From an uncultured Alphaproteobacteria bacterium (lineage in GTDB: Bacteria > Pseudomonadota > Alphaproteobacteria > RF32 > CAG-239), in NCBI GenBank assembly GCA_944393215.1, contig CALXZL010000009.1:1-49172 (forward strand): 49,172 nt of DNA, given 5' to 3'. How positions within the stretch are numbered: the first letter of the stretch is position 1; every line of letters begins with the position of its first letter. Of the stretch, positions 7,534 through 46,207 are shown in pieces. The position numbers and the translations under genes are program-made. The notes under the pieces were generated by a model that saw only the letters and a program-made list of their open reading frames with translations, was not told the DNA's origin and made no database searches.

Positions 7534-10269
7534 CTAAAATTTATATTTAGCATTTAACAAACCTGTGTGGTCTTGATAATCTTGACGGAATTTACCTTCA
7601 TAAGCTGCAGAAATCTCGACATTATCATTAAGATCAGCAGTTAATCCGGCACCGAATTCCATACCGAAACGATCCAAGGCATCGCCTTCAACCGTATAAG
7701 CCGTACCATTTGCTAAAGTAACGACAGAATTGGTATCATCGTTCATTATATCGTAAGTTGCAGCAATTCTGGCTTCAGGTTTAAGATTGATACCATTGTC
7801 AAGTGTCCAGGTTTTGCTTACTTTTGCACCGATAACACCGGTCAAAATATCACTGTCGCTGCTGGAAACACTTTGGTCAGCGGAATCAGTGTATCCGTCT
7901 TGGCTGATATGAACGTAACGCAAACCAACCTCAGGGGTAAGACCGAAATGTTTCATTTTGATATCATATCCGGTCATAGCTTGCAAACCAAAGGTTTCAG
8001 CGTCATAATCAGCTTTAACATTAATACCGGAAACATTTTTGTCTTCGGAATAATCAGACCAACCATAAGAAGCAATGGCATTAACATACCAGTTGCTGGG
8101 TTTATATTCACCATAGATAAATGCAGTATGGGTATCAACATCGGTGCTTCTCTTAAAGCCGTCAATATCTGTTTTGGTATAAGCATATCCCAAACCGACT
8201 TTGGTATTGTCGTTAATATATTTTTCAGCCCCCATTGCAACGCCGTTTGTATCAGCATCAAACCCCTTAGCTTTGGCGGTATCATCCAATTCGGAGTGGT
8301 TGAACAAACCTTGAACCCAAAGGGCTGCACGTTCGAAAATATTATCACCTGAAGACATACCTTCACCGCCGGTAGAAACGGTTCCTCCGGTTAAACGCGT
8401 TCCGACAGCGCCGAAAACTTGGTTTGCAGTTTGTGTTTGTGTATGTTGAACCATTGGCGCTGTTTCGGGAGCAACAGCGGTTAATGCGTCCACATAAGCC
8501 TTTTTATCATTTTGAGACAAATCATTTAATTTAGAAGCAACACTCTGAGCAGTTTCGCTGGCAGAAGTATTATCCTTCATAGCATCCCAAGCTTCAGCTG
8601 TAGAGGCATTATTTGAAGTGCCTCCTGTATTGTCAACAACGTCAGAGGCTGTATTTTCATAAGTAACTTTAAAGTTTTTACCATCTTCGGAAGTAACAGT
8701 ATAACGGTTATTTGAAATTTCTTTGGTGAAATTATCGGTAACGTTTCCTTTGAATAATTCAAAACTTTCAGAATCTCCGATTTCCATTTGTTTGGTAATA
8801 TTCAATGCCAATTTTGAACCGCTCATACCATTGATTGTATTAGCTTGCAAAGATCCGTTAGAATTTTCACCGATTTCAAGTTTAAGAGTAGAACCGGAAT
8901 TAAATGTGGCATCCCCGTCGATAACGGCATTGTTCAAACCAATATTCATCACGCCGCCGTCGGTCAGATTAACATCACCGGTTACTTGAGCGCTGTTTGA
9001 ATTAAAGTTAAGAGTACCGTTACCGTCCAAATTGGTATCTAAGGTTCCATCAATATTTAATATAGCGGCAGAGCCGAGTATAGCGGTCGTTTCAAGCTTA
9101 TCATTTCCGCCATAGATACCTAAAGTTGAGCCCTCGGTAATATTAATGGTACCACCGTTGAGATTAACGTTTCCGCTGCTTGAAAGTTCAGCTTGTTGAC
9201 TATTAACATTTATGGTACCGGAATTTATATTTAAATCATATATATCATCATCAGGAGCATAATCTGCAATATTATTAATGATGGTTTCCGTGCCATTCAT
9301 ATTAATGGTAGCATTGTCAATGTTTAATTCTTTGCGGGCATATAAACCGGTTCCGGAGCTGTAAGTGCCATTATCTGTCAAGGTAATTTCGCCGCCGGAA
9401 ATATTGATGTTACCCTTCCAAGCAGACATTTCTCCGTTGGTTAGCTTAACGGTTCCGCCGCTGATGTTCAAATTTTCAAAACCTTCGGCATTAACATTGG
9501 TATGAATAAATGTTCCGCCTTTGATATTAAAGTCTTTTACTCCTAATGTACCGTTAAAAGAACTCCCCTCATGTTGATCTTTAACCTCAGATATTTGACC
9601 GCCCTCTAAGGTTACATTACCGTTTTGAGCCATAACTTCGGGAGCGGTTAATGTACCGTCCTTAATTGTAATATTACCATTTTGCGAAATTAGAGAGCTA
9701 CTTGTAAAATTGTGATTTCCGCCATTGATGATAATATCTCCGTCAGCAGAAATATACGAGTTTGTTAAGTTAGATTCTCCGCCTTCTAAAGTCAGAGCGC
9801 CGTCTGCCGATATACCATGATTATCAGGATCTTGAGAAGAAGAATTGATTGTCAGATTTGTATTTGTAATTGAAATATTTCCGTTTGCCTCCAAGTCGGA
9901 ATCTTGCATGTCTACGGTAGCACCCTCGATAATCATATTGGAATTATTTGCTAATTCATCGGAATCATTTCCGGCTTCCAAAACACTACCGTTTGAAAGG
10001 TTTAGGTTTCCGTTAATTACAATATCATTATTAGCAGTATCTTTTTCGATTGTTTTAATATCCGAGTTGGAAATATTTAATGTTCCGTCCGTTCCGACTT
10101 GGATCGTTTTGTAATAATATAAGTCTTGGTCAGAAAGAGTTTGTTCGTCATTAATGACAAAATCCTTATCCGGTTCTCCAACCCAAGACTGAGCAAATGC
10201 ATCTGTTGTGCAAACAACAGCAACCAATGCAGTTGAGATTAAAAGTTTATTTTTCATACGATCTAACAT
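7534..10269 (-). CDS. Autotransporter adhesin (beta-helix passenger, C-terminal barrel)
   Basis: A 911-residue type Va secretion protein. The signal peptide is MKNKLLISTALVAVVCTTDAFA after a four-residue N-terminal extension. Residues about 40-500 are short Asn/Gly/Thr-rich repeats such as INGNLNLSNGS and LNISGGTVKL, which is the pattern of a right-handed beta-helix passenger. A helical linker (about 560-630, SQNDKKAYVDALTAVAPE) leads to a barrel of about 260 residues ending in KYKF with the C-terminal aromatic. The passenger should reach the cell surface. No protease triad is evident, so adhesion is the inferred role. Start: the ATG at 10269 lies directly after AAGG, while the ATG at 10257 has the AAGGA 11-12 nt upstream and begins exactly at the signal peptide. 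Either is possible. The gene lies directly behind a structured RNA leader and terminator. Confidence 0.9.
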   Translation of the reverse strand: MLDRMKNKLLISTALVAVVCTTDAFAQSWVGEPDKDFVINDEQTLSDQDLYYYKTIQVGTDGTLNISNSDIKTIEKDTANNDIVINGNLNLSNGSVLEAGNDSDELANNSNMIIEGATVDMQDSDLEANGNISITNTNLTINSSSQDPDNHGISADGALTLEGGESNLTNSYISADGDIIINGGNHNFTSSSLISQNGNITIKDGTLTAPEVMAQNGNVTLEGGQISEVKDQHEGSSFNGTLGVKDFNIKGGTFIHTNVNAEGFENLNISGGTVKLTNGEMSAWKGNINISGGEITLTDNGTYSSGTGLYARKELNIDNATINMNGTETIINNIADYAPDDDIYDLNINSGTINVNSQQAELSSSGNVNLNGGTINITEGSTLGIYGGNDKLETTAILGSAAILNIDGTLDTNLDGNGTLNFNSNSAQVTGDVNLTDGGVMNIGLNNAVIDGDATFNSGSTLKLEIGENSNGSLQANTINGMSGSKLALNITKQMEIGDSESFELFKGNVTDNFTKEISNNRYTVTSEDGKNFKVTYENTASDVVDNTGGTSNNASTAEAWDAMKDNTSASETAQSVASKLNDLSQNDKKAYVDALTAVAPETAPMVQHTQTQTANQVFGAVGTRLTGGTVSTGGEGMSSGDNIFERAALWVQGLFNHSELDDTAKAKGFDADTNGVAMGAEKYINDNTKVGLGYAYTKTDIDGFKRSTDVDTHTAFIYGEYKPSNWYVNAIASYGWSDYSEDKNVSGINVKADYDAETFGLQAMTGYDIKMKHFGLTPEVGLRYVHISQDGYTDSADQSVSSSDSDILTGVIGAKVSKTWTLDNGINLKPEARIAATYDIMNDDTNSVVTLANGTAYTVEGDALDRFGMEFGAGLTADLNDNVEISAAYEGKFRQDYQDHTGLLNAKYKF

Positions 10270-10290: not shown

Positions 10291-10313
10291 AAAAAACCGC
10301 TCAAAAGAGGCGG
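10291..10313 (-). terminator. Conditional-looking terminator in the autotransporter leader
   Basis: On the minus strand, CCGCCTC-TTTT-GAGCGG (one bulged C) is followed by six T. It lies only 21 nt (or 33 nt) before the autotransporter start, leaving no room for a promoter downstream. Its first two C residues (10312-10313) also belong to the last strand of the upstream RNA pseudoknot. Confidence 0.75.
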
Positions 10314-10460
10314 GCGGATGTTCGAAAACCGTATACGTCCAGACGGCTCGGCTTATTTGGCTGAGCCTTATTCACCGACATCCGTCCCAAAATCAGAAGT
10401 CGGCACAAATTTTAAAGTCATGTGCACATGACCAAACGTATAAAGGGTTTTCGACGCCCT
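10291..10460 (-). ncRNA. Structured leader RNA, copy 1 (riboswitch-like, family not recognised)
   Basis: A minus-strand RNA of about 170 nt. The 5' arm starting AGGGCGUCGAAAACCC (10460 downward) pairs with GGUUUUCGA at 10322-10330, extended by AUACGU/ACGUAU (10434-10439 region with 10332-10338). GGGACGGAUGU (10378-10388) pairs with ACAUCCG-CCC (10312-10321). The order a-b-a'-b' gives a pseudoknot. Inner hairpins are a palindromic GUCAUGUGCACAUGAC (10417-10432) and GGCUC/GAGCC (10345-10367). The terminator follows. A second copy lies at 45256-45447 with compensatory changes. A TAGAAT -10-like box lies just upstream on the minus strand. The family is unknown to me, and the ligand, if any, is unknown. 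Confidence 0.75.
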
Positions 10461-43230: not shown

Positions 43231-43262
43231 AAAAAAAAGGCACCTGTTGAGGTGCCTTTTTT
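43231..43262. terminator. Bidirectional intrinsic terminator
   Basis: AAAAGGCACCT/AGGTGCCTTTT (43235-43245/43250-43260) lies between valS and the convergent pyruvyltransferase-like gene, whose stop codon begins at the T run. Confidence 0.92.
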
Positions 43263-44208
43263 AGAATAATGAGTTCCAAAAAGAACCAATATCCTGATAA
43301 GCCTTTTCTGCAAAATCAGAGCTGTTTTTTTGCCATTGATTAAGGAGCGTTTCTGATGCACAGCAATAAGCCTGTAGAGCCTGCAGAGGTGTTTCAAAAA
43401 CAAAATCTGAATCCAAATGCGCATCATAGAACATAGATTTTATTTTCCATGTATTTGATTCGATGGCAAACGTTGGAATCTTAAGCATTAAAGACATACA
43501 ACAAGCGTGAAAACGTCCGGAAATTAAAGATTTGTAAGGAAGAAGCTGTTCAGCATTGTCCAGATGCAAAAAATGAAGATGATGCATCAGAAGTGCCGGA
43601 AAATAACGCCAATTTCTTTTTTGCTTTTGCCAATGTTTGTGATACATAAAAAATAAATCACAATTTTGCTTTTTTGCAATTTTAATGAGCTCCGACGTAA
43701 TGTCTTTTTTCACACTATCTATAATCGCTAAATTTTTATGAGGATGATAGTCTAAATTTTTTAATTCCGGTAGAGAATAAAAAGATAAATCAGGTATATT
43801 GAAAGCATTTTTGCATCCGTCTTTAACAGCTTCTTGAAAGGAAAAAGTTTCTCGAAAAGAACAAACATCAAAAACAGATAAATATCTTTTATTAGCGGGG
43901 TTATTTTGCCAAACGGCATTAACCAAAAACACTTTTTTCTTGAGTTCTTTGGCAAGTAATGCTTTTTGAAGCCATACTTCACCGGCATCATCATGAAGAG
44001 TTCCTTCTCCGTTCAAAATAACAATATCGGCTGCCGATATTTGATTACAAAATTCGGTTTTATCAAAATTTTCGGAACCGTTTTTATCATATAAACAGAT
44101 TTTGCAATTTTTGTTAAGGCACAAAGAGGTTATGTTTTGAATAACGTGTAAACAACCCCAGTGACCTTTATCTCGAGTGGTATCATTTAGGAGAGCAGCT
44201 TTGAGCAT
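43261..44208 (-). CDS. Polysaccharide pyruvyltransferase-family protein
   Basis: A 315-residue GT-B-like protein. It opens MLKAALLNDTTRDKGHWGCLHVIQN (in part), with the family's N-terminal nucleotide loop. IVILNGEGTLHDD (about 68-80) matches the conserved NGEGT-H of polysaccharide pyruvyl transferases, and VFLVNAVWQNNP is the following strand. The helical FSFQEAVKDGCKNAFNIPDLSFY (in part) and the C-terminal YKSLISGRFHACCMSLMLKIPTFAIES (in part) give the family SGR-H pattern. It probably adds ketal pyruvate to a surface polysaccharide. Gene spacing of 2 nt to the sialyltransferase-like gene shows cotranscription. Confidence 0.82.
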   Translation of the reverse strand: MLKAALLNDTTRDKGHWGCLHVIQNITSLCLNKNCKICLYDKNGSENFDKTEFCNQISAADIVILNGEGTLHDDAGEVWLQKALLAKELKKKVFLVNAVWQNNPANKRYLSVFDVCSFRETFSFQEAVKDGCKNAFNIPDLSFYSLPELKNLDYHPHKNLAIIDSVKKDITSELIKIAKKQNCDLFFMYHKHWQKQKRNWRYFPALLMHHLHFLHLDNAEQLLPYKSLISGRFHACCMSLMLKIPTFAIESNTWKIKSMFYDAHLDSDFVFETPLQALQAYCCASETLLNQWQKNSSDFAEKAYQDIGSFWNSLF

Positions 44209-44210
44209 AT

Positions 44211-45221
44211 TTATTCCTTAAACAACTTTTGCAAGACAGCATTTTCAAGTTCAAAATTATGATGCCCGTTTTTTTGAAATTTTTTGATAACACGGTCAGA
44301 CCTCTTTTGAAAATAGTGGTCATAATAGTTGGAAGAATTTTCCAAAAAAGAAAAACCGAAAATATTTTTGCGAGAGATAGAGCAGATATTTTTTAAATGG
44401 AAAAGAGCAGATAAGCCGGAAGACGGATAAACAATGCCATACTGTTTAAGGTCTTTTTTGTAATCTGCACCAATATAAGAAATGGGAAGTCCGGTTTTTA
44501 AATTAAGCCAAATATATTCAAGACATTGAGAATCTAATTTTGTATGCAATAAATCGACATTATAGAGAATATAATCCATTTTTTTGAGTTCTTCGGGCGG
44601 ACGATTAACAATATCTTTAGCCTGACAACAAACCCAAAGGTTTGTTTTGGAGCCATAGTCTTTTTCAAAATTTTGCGTACGAAAATTATTGAAACGAACC
44701 ACGACATCGGCGGCGTCAATATCTTTGCCCTTATTTTTATCAATGAGATTAGGAGAGTTTCCGACGATAGCTATGGTTTTATTTTTAAGAAATTTATTGA
44801 GAGAGTTATTGAGGCGATTTTGTTCTAAAATATTCCAGATATGAGCAACTTTTTTGATATTTTCATTAAAATGTCCGAGTTCACAAGCCATATTTGCCGC
44901 CAAAGGATAAGAGGCAATGCACTCCAGTCCGAATTTTTGAATATAATCAAGCAGATATTTCTGAGCTTCTTGCGATTTATTATTTTCAATCAAAGTTGAA
45001 ATAAAGACTAAAAAAACTTCTTTATTTTCTTCTTTTTGGGCGGCAGAAGATTTAAGTGCAGGGCGCAATTTTTCTTCCAAAAGAACGGGGTTAAAATCAG
45101 TTTGCCAAGCCGTAAATAAATCGCTGAAACAATCATCAATTTTGATTTTATATTTGATTTTGATGCCGCAAAAAGAAATAATAATTTTGTTATCTTGTCT
45201 TGTTTTACTAAAAAGTTTCAT
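44211..45221 (-). CDS. GT29-like sialyltransferase-family protein
   Basis: A 336-residue glycosyltransferase candidate. The N-terminal IIISFCGIKIKYKIKI segment is common in surface-glycan transferases. After a helical domain (about 60-145) the GT29 motifs appear: AIVGNSPNL (about 151-159), DIDAADVVVRFNNFRT (about 167-182), then DYGSKTNLWV, a YPSSGLSALFHL block like motif S (about 267-278), and the YYDHYF histidine near 308 like motif VS. GT29 enzymes transfer sialic acid from CMP-sialic acid. In bacteria this family is uncommon, and the acceptor is unknown. GAGGGA lies before the ATG. Its leader contains the second copy of the structured RNA and terminator. Confidence 0.78.
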   Translation of the reverse strand: MKLFSKTRQDNKIIISFCGIKIKYKIKIDDCFSDLFTAWQTDFNPVLLEEKLRPALKSSAAQKEENKEVFLVFISTLIENNKSQEAQKYLLDYIQKFGLECIASYPLAANMACELGHFNENIKKVAHIWNILEQNRLNNSLNKFLKNKTIAIVGNSPNLIDKNKGKDIDAADVVVRFNNFRTQNFEKDYGSKTNLWVCCQAKDIVNRPPEELKKMDYILYNVDLLHTKLDSQCLEYIWLNLKTGLPISYIGADYKKDLKQYGIVYPSSGLSALFHLKNICSISRKNIFGFSFLENSSNYYDHYFQKRSDRVIKKFQKNGHHNFELENAVLQKLFKE

Positions 45222-45255
45222 TTTCTCACATCCCTCTTTATAAATTTAAGAATAT

Positions 45256-45288
45256 AAAAATCCCACTTTTCTGATAAAGAAAGGTGGG
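45256..45288 (-). terminator. Conditional-looking terminator in the sialyltransferase-like leader
   Basis: On the minus strand CCCACCTTTC pairs with GAAAAGTGGG (one mismatch), followed by ATTTTT. It ends 35 nt before the start codon. The three leading C residues (45286-45288) are shared with the last strand of the upstream pseudoknot. Confidence 0.8.
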
Positions 45289-45447
45289 CGGATGTTCGAA
45301 AACCGTAAATGAAACTATAATCGGCTCGGCTTATTTAGCTTAAAGCCTTATTCACCGACATCCGCCCAAAGGCAGAAATCGGCACTAATTTTTAAGGTCG
45401 TATGCACCAATAACGACCAGTTTCATTTAAAGGGTTTTCGACGCCCT
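45256..45447 (-). ncRNA. Structured leader RNA, copy 2 (riboswitch-like, family not recognised)
   Basis: A minus-strand RNA of about 190 nt collinear with copy 1 (10291-10460). The same 5' end AGGGCGUCGAAAACCC is followed by a different arm, AAAUGAAACU at 45419-45428, that still pairs with AGUUUCAUUU at 45307-45316. In copy 1 the equivalent arm is AUACGU. Both sides therefore changed together. GGGCGGAUGU (45358-45367) pairs perfectly with ACAUCCGCCC (45286-45295), giving the a-b-a'-b' pseudoknot order. Conserved single-stranded-looking blocks are GUGCCGA, GGUGAAUAAGGCU and AAAUAAGCCGAGCCG. A hairpin CGGATA/TATCCG (45448-45461) lies at the likely transcript start. Confidence 0.78.
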
Positions 45448-45553: not shown

Positions 45554-46207
45554 ATGAAGCTAGATTATAAGAAAATACAACAATACAATCAGATGTTTGT
45601 GCGCTGGAAGGAAGAGCTTTTTCCTAAGCAAGAATATGCGCACCGGAATGAGTGTTGTTTTGCCTTTGCACATATGCTGGCAAAAAAAGCCAAAGAAGAG
45701 GGGATGATACCGACCAAAATCTGGTGTATGAAATCAAAAGACAAAGATTGGGTGGAAACACGTTTTCCTGCCGATAACGAACAAGGTTATGAAACCAGAA
45801 AATGGGAAGGTTACCATGTGGCAATGGCAATAGATTTGCCAATATATCAAGCCACAACAAAAACGGAAAGATTAATATTTGATCCGGTGGTGTTTAATGA
45901 GGTTGTCCGAGAAAAGGATTGGATAACAGCATTGAACACATCAGAAGAATATGTGGCATATTCAGGCTGTAAGTTTGGAAAAGAAGGCTTAACAGATGAA
46001 AGTTTTTACGGCGGCAGCGGTTATTGGCTGGATAAAAACCCGAAAATAGATTTAGATAAGCATGCTCAGATACATTTGAAGCAGATAGATACCGGAACAC
46101 CCAAGCAAAAATTGTTGAATTCTCCCTTAAGCATTTTAGCTCGAAGAGAAATACGACAAAGTCTATCACCAAATTCATTAAGACAAGCAAAAGGCCCTGA
46201 ATACTAG
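45554..46207 (+). CDS. Protein-glutaminase-like deamidase candidate
   Basis: A 217-residue protein with no signal peptide. Its layout resembles protein-glutaminase and related Cys-His-Asp deamidase domains. A cysteine starts a helix (C34-C35 in NECCFAFAHMLAKKA). A strand PTKIWCM follows. H88 lies in EGYHVAMAIDL, and D110 lies in LIFDPVVFNEVV, with a Trp 13 residues later (KDWITAL). The HVA...(F/I)DP spacing of 22 is close to the family. Such enzymes deamidate glutamine side chains. Several are effectors or processing enzymes. Substrate and export are unknown. The C terminus (Gln/Ser/Arg-rich) is divergent. GGGAAG lies before the ATG. Confidence 0.6.
   Translation: MKLDYKKIQQYNQMFVRWKEELFPKQEYAHRNECCFAFAHMLAKKAKEEGMIPTKIWCMKSKDKDWVETRFPADNEQGYETRKWEGYHVAMAIDLPIYQATTKTERLIFDPVVFNEVVREKDWITALNTSEEYVAYSGCKFGKEGLTDESFYGGSGYWLDKNPKIDLDKHAQIHLKQIDTGTPKQKLLNSPLSILARREIRQSLSPNSLRQAKGPEY

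Follow-up and report, generated by a model that had tools for sequence, protein, structure and literature searches.

Two related stretches on the minus strand of a 49,172-nt piece of DNA from an uncultured alphaproteobacterium (below, the window) raise the question of what kind of RNA they encode and on what it acts. A sequence-only reading had placed them at 10291..10460 and 45256..45447, and had taken them for two copies of a structured RNA of no known family, with compensatory base changes and conserved loops resembling a binding core. Both lie where they had been placed, and both are real structured RNAs of a little-understood family. What that reading missed is that each element is the leader of an open reading frame (ORF) on the same strand, and is partly complementary to the ribosome-binding site (RBS) of that ORF. 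We regard it as probable that both copies are antisense leaders of the sRNA-Xcc1 kind, each complete in itself, which work like the phage C4/IsrK RNA and represent a domesticated module controlling the downstream gene.

Anatomy and covariation of the leader

The element begins at its 5' end with a hairpin of the form GGG-loop-CCC, whose loop (a1) pairs with a strand a' about 115 nt further on; by its geometry this arrangement would be an H-type pseudoknot. Next come a strand b1, the partner of b', a small hairpin, and the core. In the core a stem, P1, encloses a first hairpin, which in many copies carries a symmetric AAUAA internal loop, and a second hairpin with b' in its loop, followed by the single-stranded a'. 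An RCC motif stands directly 3' of P1; in the window's family a hairpin and a T-run follow, and then the RBS of the same-strand ORF. The features are listed below, with scores for the Rfam family sRNA-Xcc1 (RF02221) and for R1, a covariance model whose 63 alphaproteobacterial source cores comprise 48 from the window's family and 15 from the other families in its class.

10291..10460, minus: copy 1, whole element from a1 hairpin to terminator T-run; leader of the autotransporter gene 7534-10257
10304-10387, minus: copy 1, match to RF02221 (35.1 bits, E 1.4e-4)
10444..10460, minus: copy 1, a1 hairpin AGGGCGTCGAAAACCCT; its loop pairs with a' at 10322-10330, a predicted H-type pseudoknot
10446-10454, minus: copy 1, a1 loop TCGAAAACC; partner a' at 10322-10330
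10436..10442, minus: copy 1, b1 TATACGT; pairs with b' at 10332-10338, the variable helix of the sequence-only reading
10308..10387, minus: copy 1, predicted antisense core, sRNA-Xcc1-like (R1 75.4 bits)
10379-10387 with 10312-10320, minus: copy 1, P1 stem; encloses the internal-loop hairpin and the b' loop hairpin, with a' single-stranded
10309..10311, minus: copy 1, RCC (GCC) beside P1, a possible RNase P signature
10291..10313, minus: copy 1, terminator-like hairpin with T6; its 5' arm overlaps the end of P1
10265..10271, minus: copy 1, putative target a2, the Shine-Dalgarno region GGATGTT; 7 bp with AACATCC of the core
10255-10257, minus: copy 1, likely start codon ATG (the ORF list starts at 10269)
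45256..45447, minus: copy 2, whole element; leader of the GT29 gene 44211-45221 (RF02221 34.6 bits)
45431..45447, minus: copy 2, a1 hairpin; loop partner a' at 45296-45304
45419..45428, minus: copy 2, b1 AAATGAAACT; partner b' at 45307-45316
45282..45367, minus: copy 2, predicted antisense core (R1 78.3 bits; fold -31.0 kcal/mol, z -3.87)
45359-45367 with 45286-45294, minus: copy 2, P1 stem
45256..45288, minus: copy 2, terminator-like hairpin with T5 (fold z -2.77)
45228..45233, minus: copy 2, putative target a2, the Shine-Dalgarno region GGATGT; 6 bp with ACATCC
45214..45223, minus: copy 2, putative target b2 AAATGAAACT across the ATG; exact repeat of b1 (10/10), 10 bp with b'
7534..10257, minus: autotransporter gene behind copy 1 (Pfam PF03797, E 1.1e-55)
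44211..45221, minus: GT29 family glycosyltransferase gene behind copy 2 (Pfam PF00777, E 2.5e-23)

The stretch 10304-10387 of copy 1 folds with -26.1 kcal/mol (z -1.53). The ATG at 10257 has, by eye, a better-spaced Shine-Dalgarno sequence than the ORF listed from 10269. The GT29 (sialyltransferase family) gene is followed by a polysaccharide pyruvyl transferase gene (43261-44208, minus), and in another genome of the genus (L039) the same RNA precedes a similar-looking ORF equal in length to the GT29 ORF. Divergent from copy 2 is an ORF with a glutaminase domain (45554-46207, plus; PF18626, E 2.5e-11).

In the genome to which the window belongs (1.72 Mb on 27 contigs), blastn with copy 1 as query recovered copy 2 at 78% identity and five copies in all, namely copies 1 and 2 and three more; the model R1 finds 8. 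One copy, at C1:225377, starts with GTTAGGGC, which prompted a comparison with integron attC sites; this candidate was rejected, the window copies being by eye devoid of that start.

The compensatory change that had first drawn attention to the pair can be read directly, copy 1 having the arms AUACGU/ACGUAU and copy 2 the arms AAAUGAAACU/AGUUUCAUUU. Further covarying homologues, which that reading had wanted sought, are at hand in 47 full-length relatives of the window type and in 63 cores, which carry the structure and show covariation far beyond chance. When the first 63 columns of the alignment of the 47 relatives were scanned against the last ~50, the two proposed long-range helices ranked highest. 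The variable helix (b1/b') has two-sided changes in all eight of its pairs, with 85.6% of cells paired. The UCGAAAACC/GGUUUUCGA pair is identical in both window copies, as had been stated, but the invariance does not extend to the family: four of the seven pairs of this helix show two-sided changes, with 98.2% of cells paired. The covariation score of the whole structure is 0.242 as against 0.096 in shuffles, none of 500 shuffles reaching the observed value, and slid partners also stay below it. Four of five covariation measures exceed the shuffles; the fifth, which counts further pair types, gives 38 against 37.9, with 304 of 500 shuffles as high. Among the 63 cores, which span several subtypes, 14 of 16 pairs have two-sided changes, and the paired fraction of cells is 92.5% (70.7% in shuffles).

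Relationship to sRNA-Xcc1 and phyletic distribution

At the Rfam gathering threshold, tRNA is the sole RNA match in the whole window. The check proposed in the sequence-only reading, a search with Infernal against Rfam and with a new model, gave no above-cut-off match for the element, but it did uncover a full-length match to RF02221 below the cut-off. In all five copies found by blastn the match spans positions 1-87 of 87, with scores of 32.0-37.7 bits, and none of the five reaches the gathering score of 53 bits. Over 54 related genomes RF02221 has matches in 33 at E<=1 and none above its cut-off. Across the phylum R1 matched 37 of 398 genomes and RF02221 62 of 398, the window's own genome included in both counts, 39 of the latter with an above-cut-off match. 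Several of the places found by the two models coincide (e.g. G140:C285:2627, G379:C1:3162257, G335:C33:20551 and G448:C1:2841741), and R1 reciprocally recognises loci above the RF02221 cut-off, such as the first two of these. The window copies accordingly fall within a wide family, and the Rfam entry represents a narrow, 3'-terminal portion of it. The tie to sRNA-Xcc1 is real but below threshold: the statement that no known family matches is not supported, and the reading as an unknown family is half right.

The window copies share with sRNA-Xcc1 the core with P1, two hairpins and single-stranded a', in addition to the full-length match and the reciprocal hits; they differ in scoring below 53 bits and in that the described family consists of the 3' half alone. 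The sRNA-Xcc1 loci studied here also have the a1/b1 half, a pseudoknot and an RBS target, none of which is in the Rfam model. A 2011 article by Chen reportedly calls sRNA-Xcc1 trans-acting in its title. The RNA was reported as an 88-nt species in Xanthomonas campestris by RACE, with many predicted trans targets, and the available part of that account mentions none of the a1/b1 half, the pseudoknot and the RBS target (PMC2996969). Judged from the Rfam model, the 5' end of the 88-nt RNA would be the start of P1. In Xanthomonas integron cassettes sRNA-Xcc1 lies upstream of symE, for which the accessible text of a 2025 paper speaks of a divergent regulatory mechanism and does not name it (PMC12444791). 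In the library searched, the terms 'sRNA-Xcc1' and 'C4 antisense' occur together in PMC12189769 alone, as separate table entries in the part available.

In the order of the window, R1 has matches at E<=0.001 in 151 of 154 genomes, and six of these genomes have 30 matches, as many as there were candidates scored. The exact window-type pattern occurs in at least 103 stretches of named GTDB genomes and has no match in viral contigs, where the phage-type pattern occurs in at least 120 stretches. By these pattern matches, the window type looks chromosomal and domesticated and the other type phage-borne. In phage collections copy 1 matches a single entry, a fecal scaffold of unverified status whose ORF behind the match has 890 aa. 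Among the 80 window-type records listed, titles give Alphaproteobacteria, Azospirillum sp. (including CAG:239), Rhodospirillales/Rhodospirillaceae and unspecified proteobacteria, and many name colon, cecum, rectum or rumen; from these titles we infer that this is a gut order. One of the 80 records (L239) is a metagenome-assembled genome titled Lentisphaeria, an occurrence that would reflect mis-binning or transfer.

Three sets of loci were compared. For the relatives, 94 of 103 matches were taken (L001-L004 and L006-L095), leaving out six with E of 0.308 or higher and three stronger ones (G051:C48, G051:C77 and G002:C17:112). One of the 94 (L035) was dropped as a match by eye devoid of the element, and the remaining 93 give 86 distinct cores, 71 from the window's family, the other 15 coming from different families within the class. 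The phylum set comprises the best R1 and RF02221 loci (L097-L154), 58 loci of which 52 are distinct by sequence; of 51 with enough flank, 49 remain once places fetched twice are removed. The independent viral set, from IMG/VR, starts from 80 loci listed of at least 120, with 41 distinct ones having all parts and 38 having an ORF.

The genes behind the RNA differ among these sets. Of the 38 downstream ORFs of the viral set, 34 carry a domain of antirepressor type (P22_AR, KilA-N, AntA, Rha, ORF6N or Bro-N); the other four are without a family. In phage Aaphi23 the element immediately precedes ant, which is annotated as the antirepressor gene and has ATCGAAA..AACAAACAGGAG at its RBS. The element is also present in Vibrio phage VPBES, where it is annotated as sRNA-Xcc1. 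In the phylum set, with 43 of 51 ORFs scanned against Pfam (eight short or duplicate ones left out), we found Bro-N (5), SymE (4), Rha (3), HTH_38 (2) and single cases of P22_AR, KilA-N, TraM and Rap1a; many ORFs have no Pfam family, and several PHROG antirepressor families also match. Among the relatives (80 of 82 ORFs scanned, some clipped at the ends of the fetched stretches) the domains are Bundlin (7), PilS (5), HTH_3 (4), autotransporter (3), outer-membrane barrels (3), GT29 (2) and, once each, EcoRI methylase, Mrr and Rha; many other ORFs are small and by eye lipoprotein-like in their signal sequence. An ORF of at least 30 aa within reach is absent at 4/86 relatives and 1/52 phylum loci. 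A type III toxin-antitoxin layout (RNA pseudoknot, terminator, gene) was considered and rejected, with no such toxin among the 25 commonest downstream Pfam families. At three phylum loci (L102, L138 and L140) a short ORF by eye overlaps or abuts the start of the Bro-N-like ORF behind the RNA, an arrangement presumably resembling the icd-ant coupling of phage P1.

Complementarity to the downstream ribosome-binding site

In many loci above the RF02221 cut-off the downstream RBS by eye repeats a1 and b1 in order, with few bases between them, and can in this way pair with the a' and b' strands of its own locus. To measure this complementarity we took the best two collinear Watson-Crick runs between the core and the 95 nt after P1, and compared the pairing of each core with its own locus and with other loci. 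In all sets the own locus scores higher: 12.04 against 9.45 in the phylum set (n=52), 12.0 against 9.43 without the twice-fetched places (n=49), 11.56 against 10.17 in the relatives (n=86), 11.66 against 10.36 in the window's family alone (n=71), and 13.12 against 9.05 in the viral set (n=41). None of 10,000 permutations reached the own-locus value in the phylum set, the relatives, the window's family or the viral set. In the viral set a score of 12 is reached by 36 of 41 own loci and by 7.9% of mismatched pairs, and the own partner is at least as good as every other in 28 of 41. Two regions further downstream served as decoys for the relatives, the phylum set and the window's family. Their scores lie close to the mean of mismatched pairs. 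Permutations equalled or exceeded the two decoy values in 4,286 and 322 of 5,000 runs (relatives), 662 and 300 of 5,000 (phylum set), and 8,538 and 1,863 of 10,000 (window's family). A slight rise is thus seen for the second decoy in the relatives and the phylum set, far below the RBS region.

This two-run count replaced duplex energies of the whole core, by which the mean of the own pairs was better than all 10,000 permutations, with the own locus being the best partner in just 3/52 of the phylum set and 6/86 of the relatives; such energies apparently add distant loops, so that the own locus is rarely the best. An early Shine-Dalgarno test gave 6.04 for own as against 4.86 for shuffled pairs, a first look in which some start codons were wrong.

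Among the relatives, pairing with the RBS falls to the boundary of a' and P1, which is an anti-Shine-Dalgarno sequence. The word GGATGT follows 35 of 45 RNAs of the CATCC type, being absent at the other 10, and none of the 38 that belong to three other types; GGAAGT is found with the CTTCC type alone, after 6 of 9 RNAs. The GCTCC and ACTCC types are less clean, with their own words after 10/16 and 8/13 RNAs and the word of the other after 4 and 6, and three RNAs of the relatives fit no type. The complementarity in the window is short, with 7 bp in copy 1 and 6 + 10 bp in copy 2. As part of the anti-Shine-Dalgarno sequence lies inside P1, this stem would have to open for the pairing, unlike in C4.

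The signals flanking the core differ between the sets. A terminator-like hairpin with a T-run follows P1 in 76/86 relatives (3 when shuffled) and 68/71 of the window's family, as compared to 3/52 of the phylum set. Between b1 and the core such a terminator is found in 8/86 relatives (2 shuffled), 7/71 of the window's family and 36/52 of the phylum set (3 shuffled). The terminator fold of copy 1 is not above shuffles (z -0.15), and scans around both copies for consensus promoters and terminators had no hit on the appropriate strand; the terminator assignment rests on folds and family-wide counts. The motif RCY after P1 occurs in 83/86 relatives and in all 71 of the window's family, and RCC in 71/86 relatives (1/86 in the control); a G is at +1 in 81/86 relatives, and RCY is weaker in the phylum set (22/52). 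These counts use the P1 ends given by the model hits; with ends recomputed by the longest helix the motif is seen in 23/86 relatives and 5/52 of the phylum set, the shifted frame having hidden the RCC motif.

Several individual loci depart from the common layout. In one copy of the own genome (L167:200-850) the ORF starts more than 150 nt after P1, and the sequence between the two by eye resembles stretches near L166 and L081; it is perhaps inserted DNA that has cut the link between RNA and target. Another own-genome copy (L166:2600-2966) has a good RBS target, GGAGTTGAAA, with an ORF behind it that is by eye short or broken, which suggests a remnant. In L048 (G051:C24) a perfect target-like word, CCAGAAGTT, follows the terminator, and the ORF has just 33 aa.

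Probable antisense control in the manner of C4 RNA, and its alternatives

The C4 antisense RNA belongs to phages P1 and P7. Its layout, as seen in 10 C4 loci and in the models C4 (RF01695), c4-a1b1 (RF03163) and isrK (RF01394), is that of our elements: an a1 hairpin, b1, the core, and a2/b2 at the RBS. The C4 core likewise has P1, two hairpins and an a' strand, with CC after P1. In our elements, too, the a'/b' strands have complements on both sides, a1/b1 upstream and a2/b2 at the RBS; in the window a2 is short and overlaps P1. With the RF01695 model nothing is found in the own genome, and at E<=0.1 neither five own-genome loci nor 14 sRNA-Xcc1-type loci match; R1 in turn has no hit at E<=1 in the 10 C4 loci. 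Since the models are blind to each other in the loci tried, we say that the RNA works like C4, not that it is a C4. Differences from C4/IsrK are that the relatives mostly lack the terminator before the core, which in C4/IsrK yields a short a1b1 RNA (8/86, as against 36/52 in the phylum set), and have one after it, and that they pair with the Shine-Dalgarno sequence through part of P1. C4 RNA is reported to be a substrate of RNase P, with the cut at the P1 5' end, after which its a' and b' loops pair with target mRNAs and partly occlude the RBS (PMC5320573); its target is given as an antirepressor (PMC12197685). For IsrK it is described that the read-through mRNA is inactive from internal pairing and that a short 5' RNA activates it in trans (PMC4825925). 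The 'Group 1' C4-like sRNAs of Acinetobacter baumannii are comparable in that a phage antisense fold has multiplied in the chromosome and is proposed to be co-opted. They differ in being of the C4 family and in that, in the available text, bacterial targets are proposed and none is named (PMC5320573), whereas most copies studied here have a gene directly downstream with a matching RBS.

The fold, the covariation, the locus-specific complementarity, the distribution and the gene context are read from the sequences themselves; transcription, processing, repression and the direction of the switch are what we infer from them, as follows. The transcript would start just upstream of the a1 hairpin, and the leader would fold into a1/b1 and then a core of ~80 nt with P1, two hairpins, the b' loop and the single-stranded a'. 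RNase P probably cuts at the first G of P1, by analogy with C4 and judging from the sequence signature, and would thereby release the core. The a' and b' strands would alternate between two partners, namely the upstream a1/b1 and the RBS of the following gene. When on the RBS, they would block translation of the downstream gene; when on a1/b1, the antisense would be occupied and the gene freed. In the window's order, given the intrinsic-type terminator right after P1, the full-length mRNA would need read-through. In the phage version the target would usually be an antirepressor-type gene and sometimes SymE. In the window's order the module looks domesticated and multiplied, its target apparently having moved onto the Shine-Dalgarno sequence, and it would control surface and other host genes.

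On the sequence evidence, the function is most likely antisense control of the downstream gene and not that of a ligand riboswitch. A binding core in the riboswitch sense, as the conserved loops had suggested, is not supported; the two long-range strands are partners of each other and of the downstream RBS. We consider it quite improbable that the three-way junction with its symmetric AAUAA loop binds a metabolite, with P1 versus the pairing of Shine-Dalgarno and anti-Shine-Dalgarno as the expression platform. The letters of the internal loop are indeed conserved across many subtypes, the P1 strand and the Shine-Dalgarno sequence compete for one anti-Shine-Dalgarno, and the downstream genes are a broad set. 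Yet b1/b', and in phages also b2, vary by locus and keep their complementarity to the local RBS, a property for which a riboswitch has no need; the viral targets are phage antirepressors (34/38), pointing to an immunity RNA; and the family match is to an 88-nt RNA seen as such in X. campestris (PMC2996969).

Two other ways of acting have to be weighed against control at the RBS. The phage P4 CI RNA, with seqA and seqC, is likewise an antisense with complementary sequences upstream and downstream, and is called a structural relative of IsrK (PMC4825925); it differs in acting by transcription termination, and is likened to our elements here by description. If the leader acted in this manner, pairing would set the terminator after P1 and so control read-through, with RBS pairing secondary, for which the high terminator counts in the relatives and the window's family and the overlap of the terminator's 5' arm with P1 can be cited. 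This is nevertheless unlikely, since the phylum set is nearly devoid of that terminator yet has the stronger RBS pairing, and the Shine-Dalgarno word falls within the locus-specific complementarity. That the core is a free trans-acting sRNA with its main targets elsewhere, as the sRNA-Xcc1 papers assume, and that the neighbouring gene is incidental, appears highly improbable: complementarity to the own locus exceeds that to the RBS regions of other loci in three sets, and in two decoy-tested sets the excess is confined to the RBS region. What speaks for such action in trans are the many predicted trans targets of the 88-nt RNA (PMC2996969) and the CATCC anti-Shine-Dalgarno sequence common to paralogues in one genome, which would make cross-talk possible.

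Under the preferred reading of antisense control, phages appear to use the family to silence one gene by pairing with its RBS. An order of gut bacteria seems to have taken over this phage device and multiplied it in front of its own genes, including surface-protein genes, apparently a case of a phage RNA for antirepressor control being domesticated on a large scale. It would give sRNA-Xcc1, reported in 2010 and here seen in at least 120 viral stretches, a candidate target and mechanism in the adjoining RBS and, if true, explain its position upstream of symE in Xanthomonas integron cassettes; the specificity being encoded in sequence, the predicted regulator-target pairs are directly testable. 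As a more speculative extension, which we think possible without favouring it, this order of small-genome gut Alphaproteobacteria might have turned a phage immunity device into a post-transcriptional network. In such a network a genome would hold up to tens of paralogous leaders, every one of them matched to a single surface or regulatory gene, with cross-talk via the shared anti-Shine-Dalgarno sequence. Together they would determine which autotransporters, pilins and glycans are produced, and sRNA-Xcc1 would be the processed core of a two-target device.

The AAUAA/AAUAA internal loop at 10352-10374 and its equivalents are conserved in many copies and have no role in the antisense model; as a guess, the loop might bind a protein such as Hfq. 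Finally, one genome of the phylum search (G181) has 27 matches to C4 (RF01695), a possible parallel expansion of the other antisense family.
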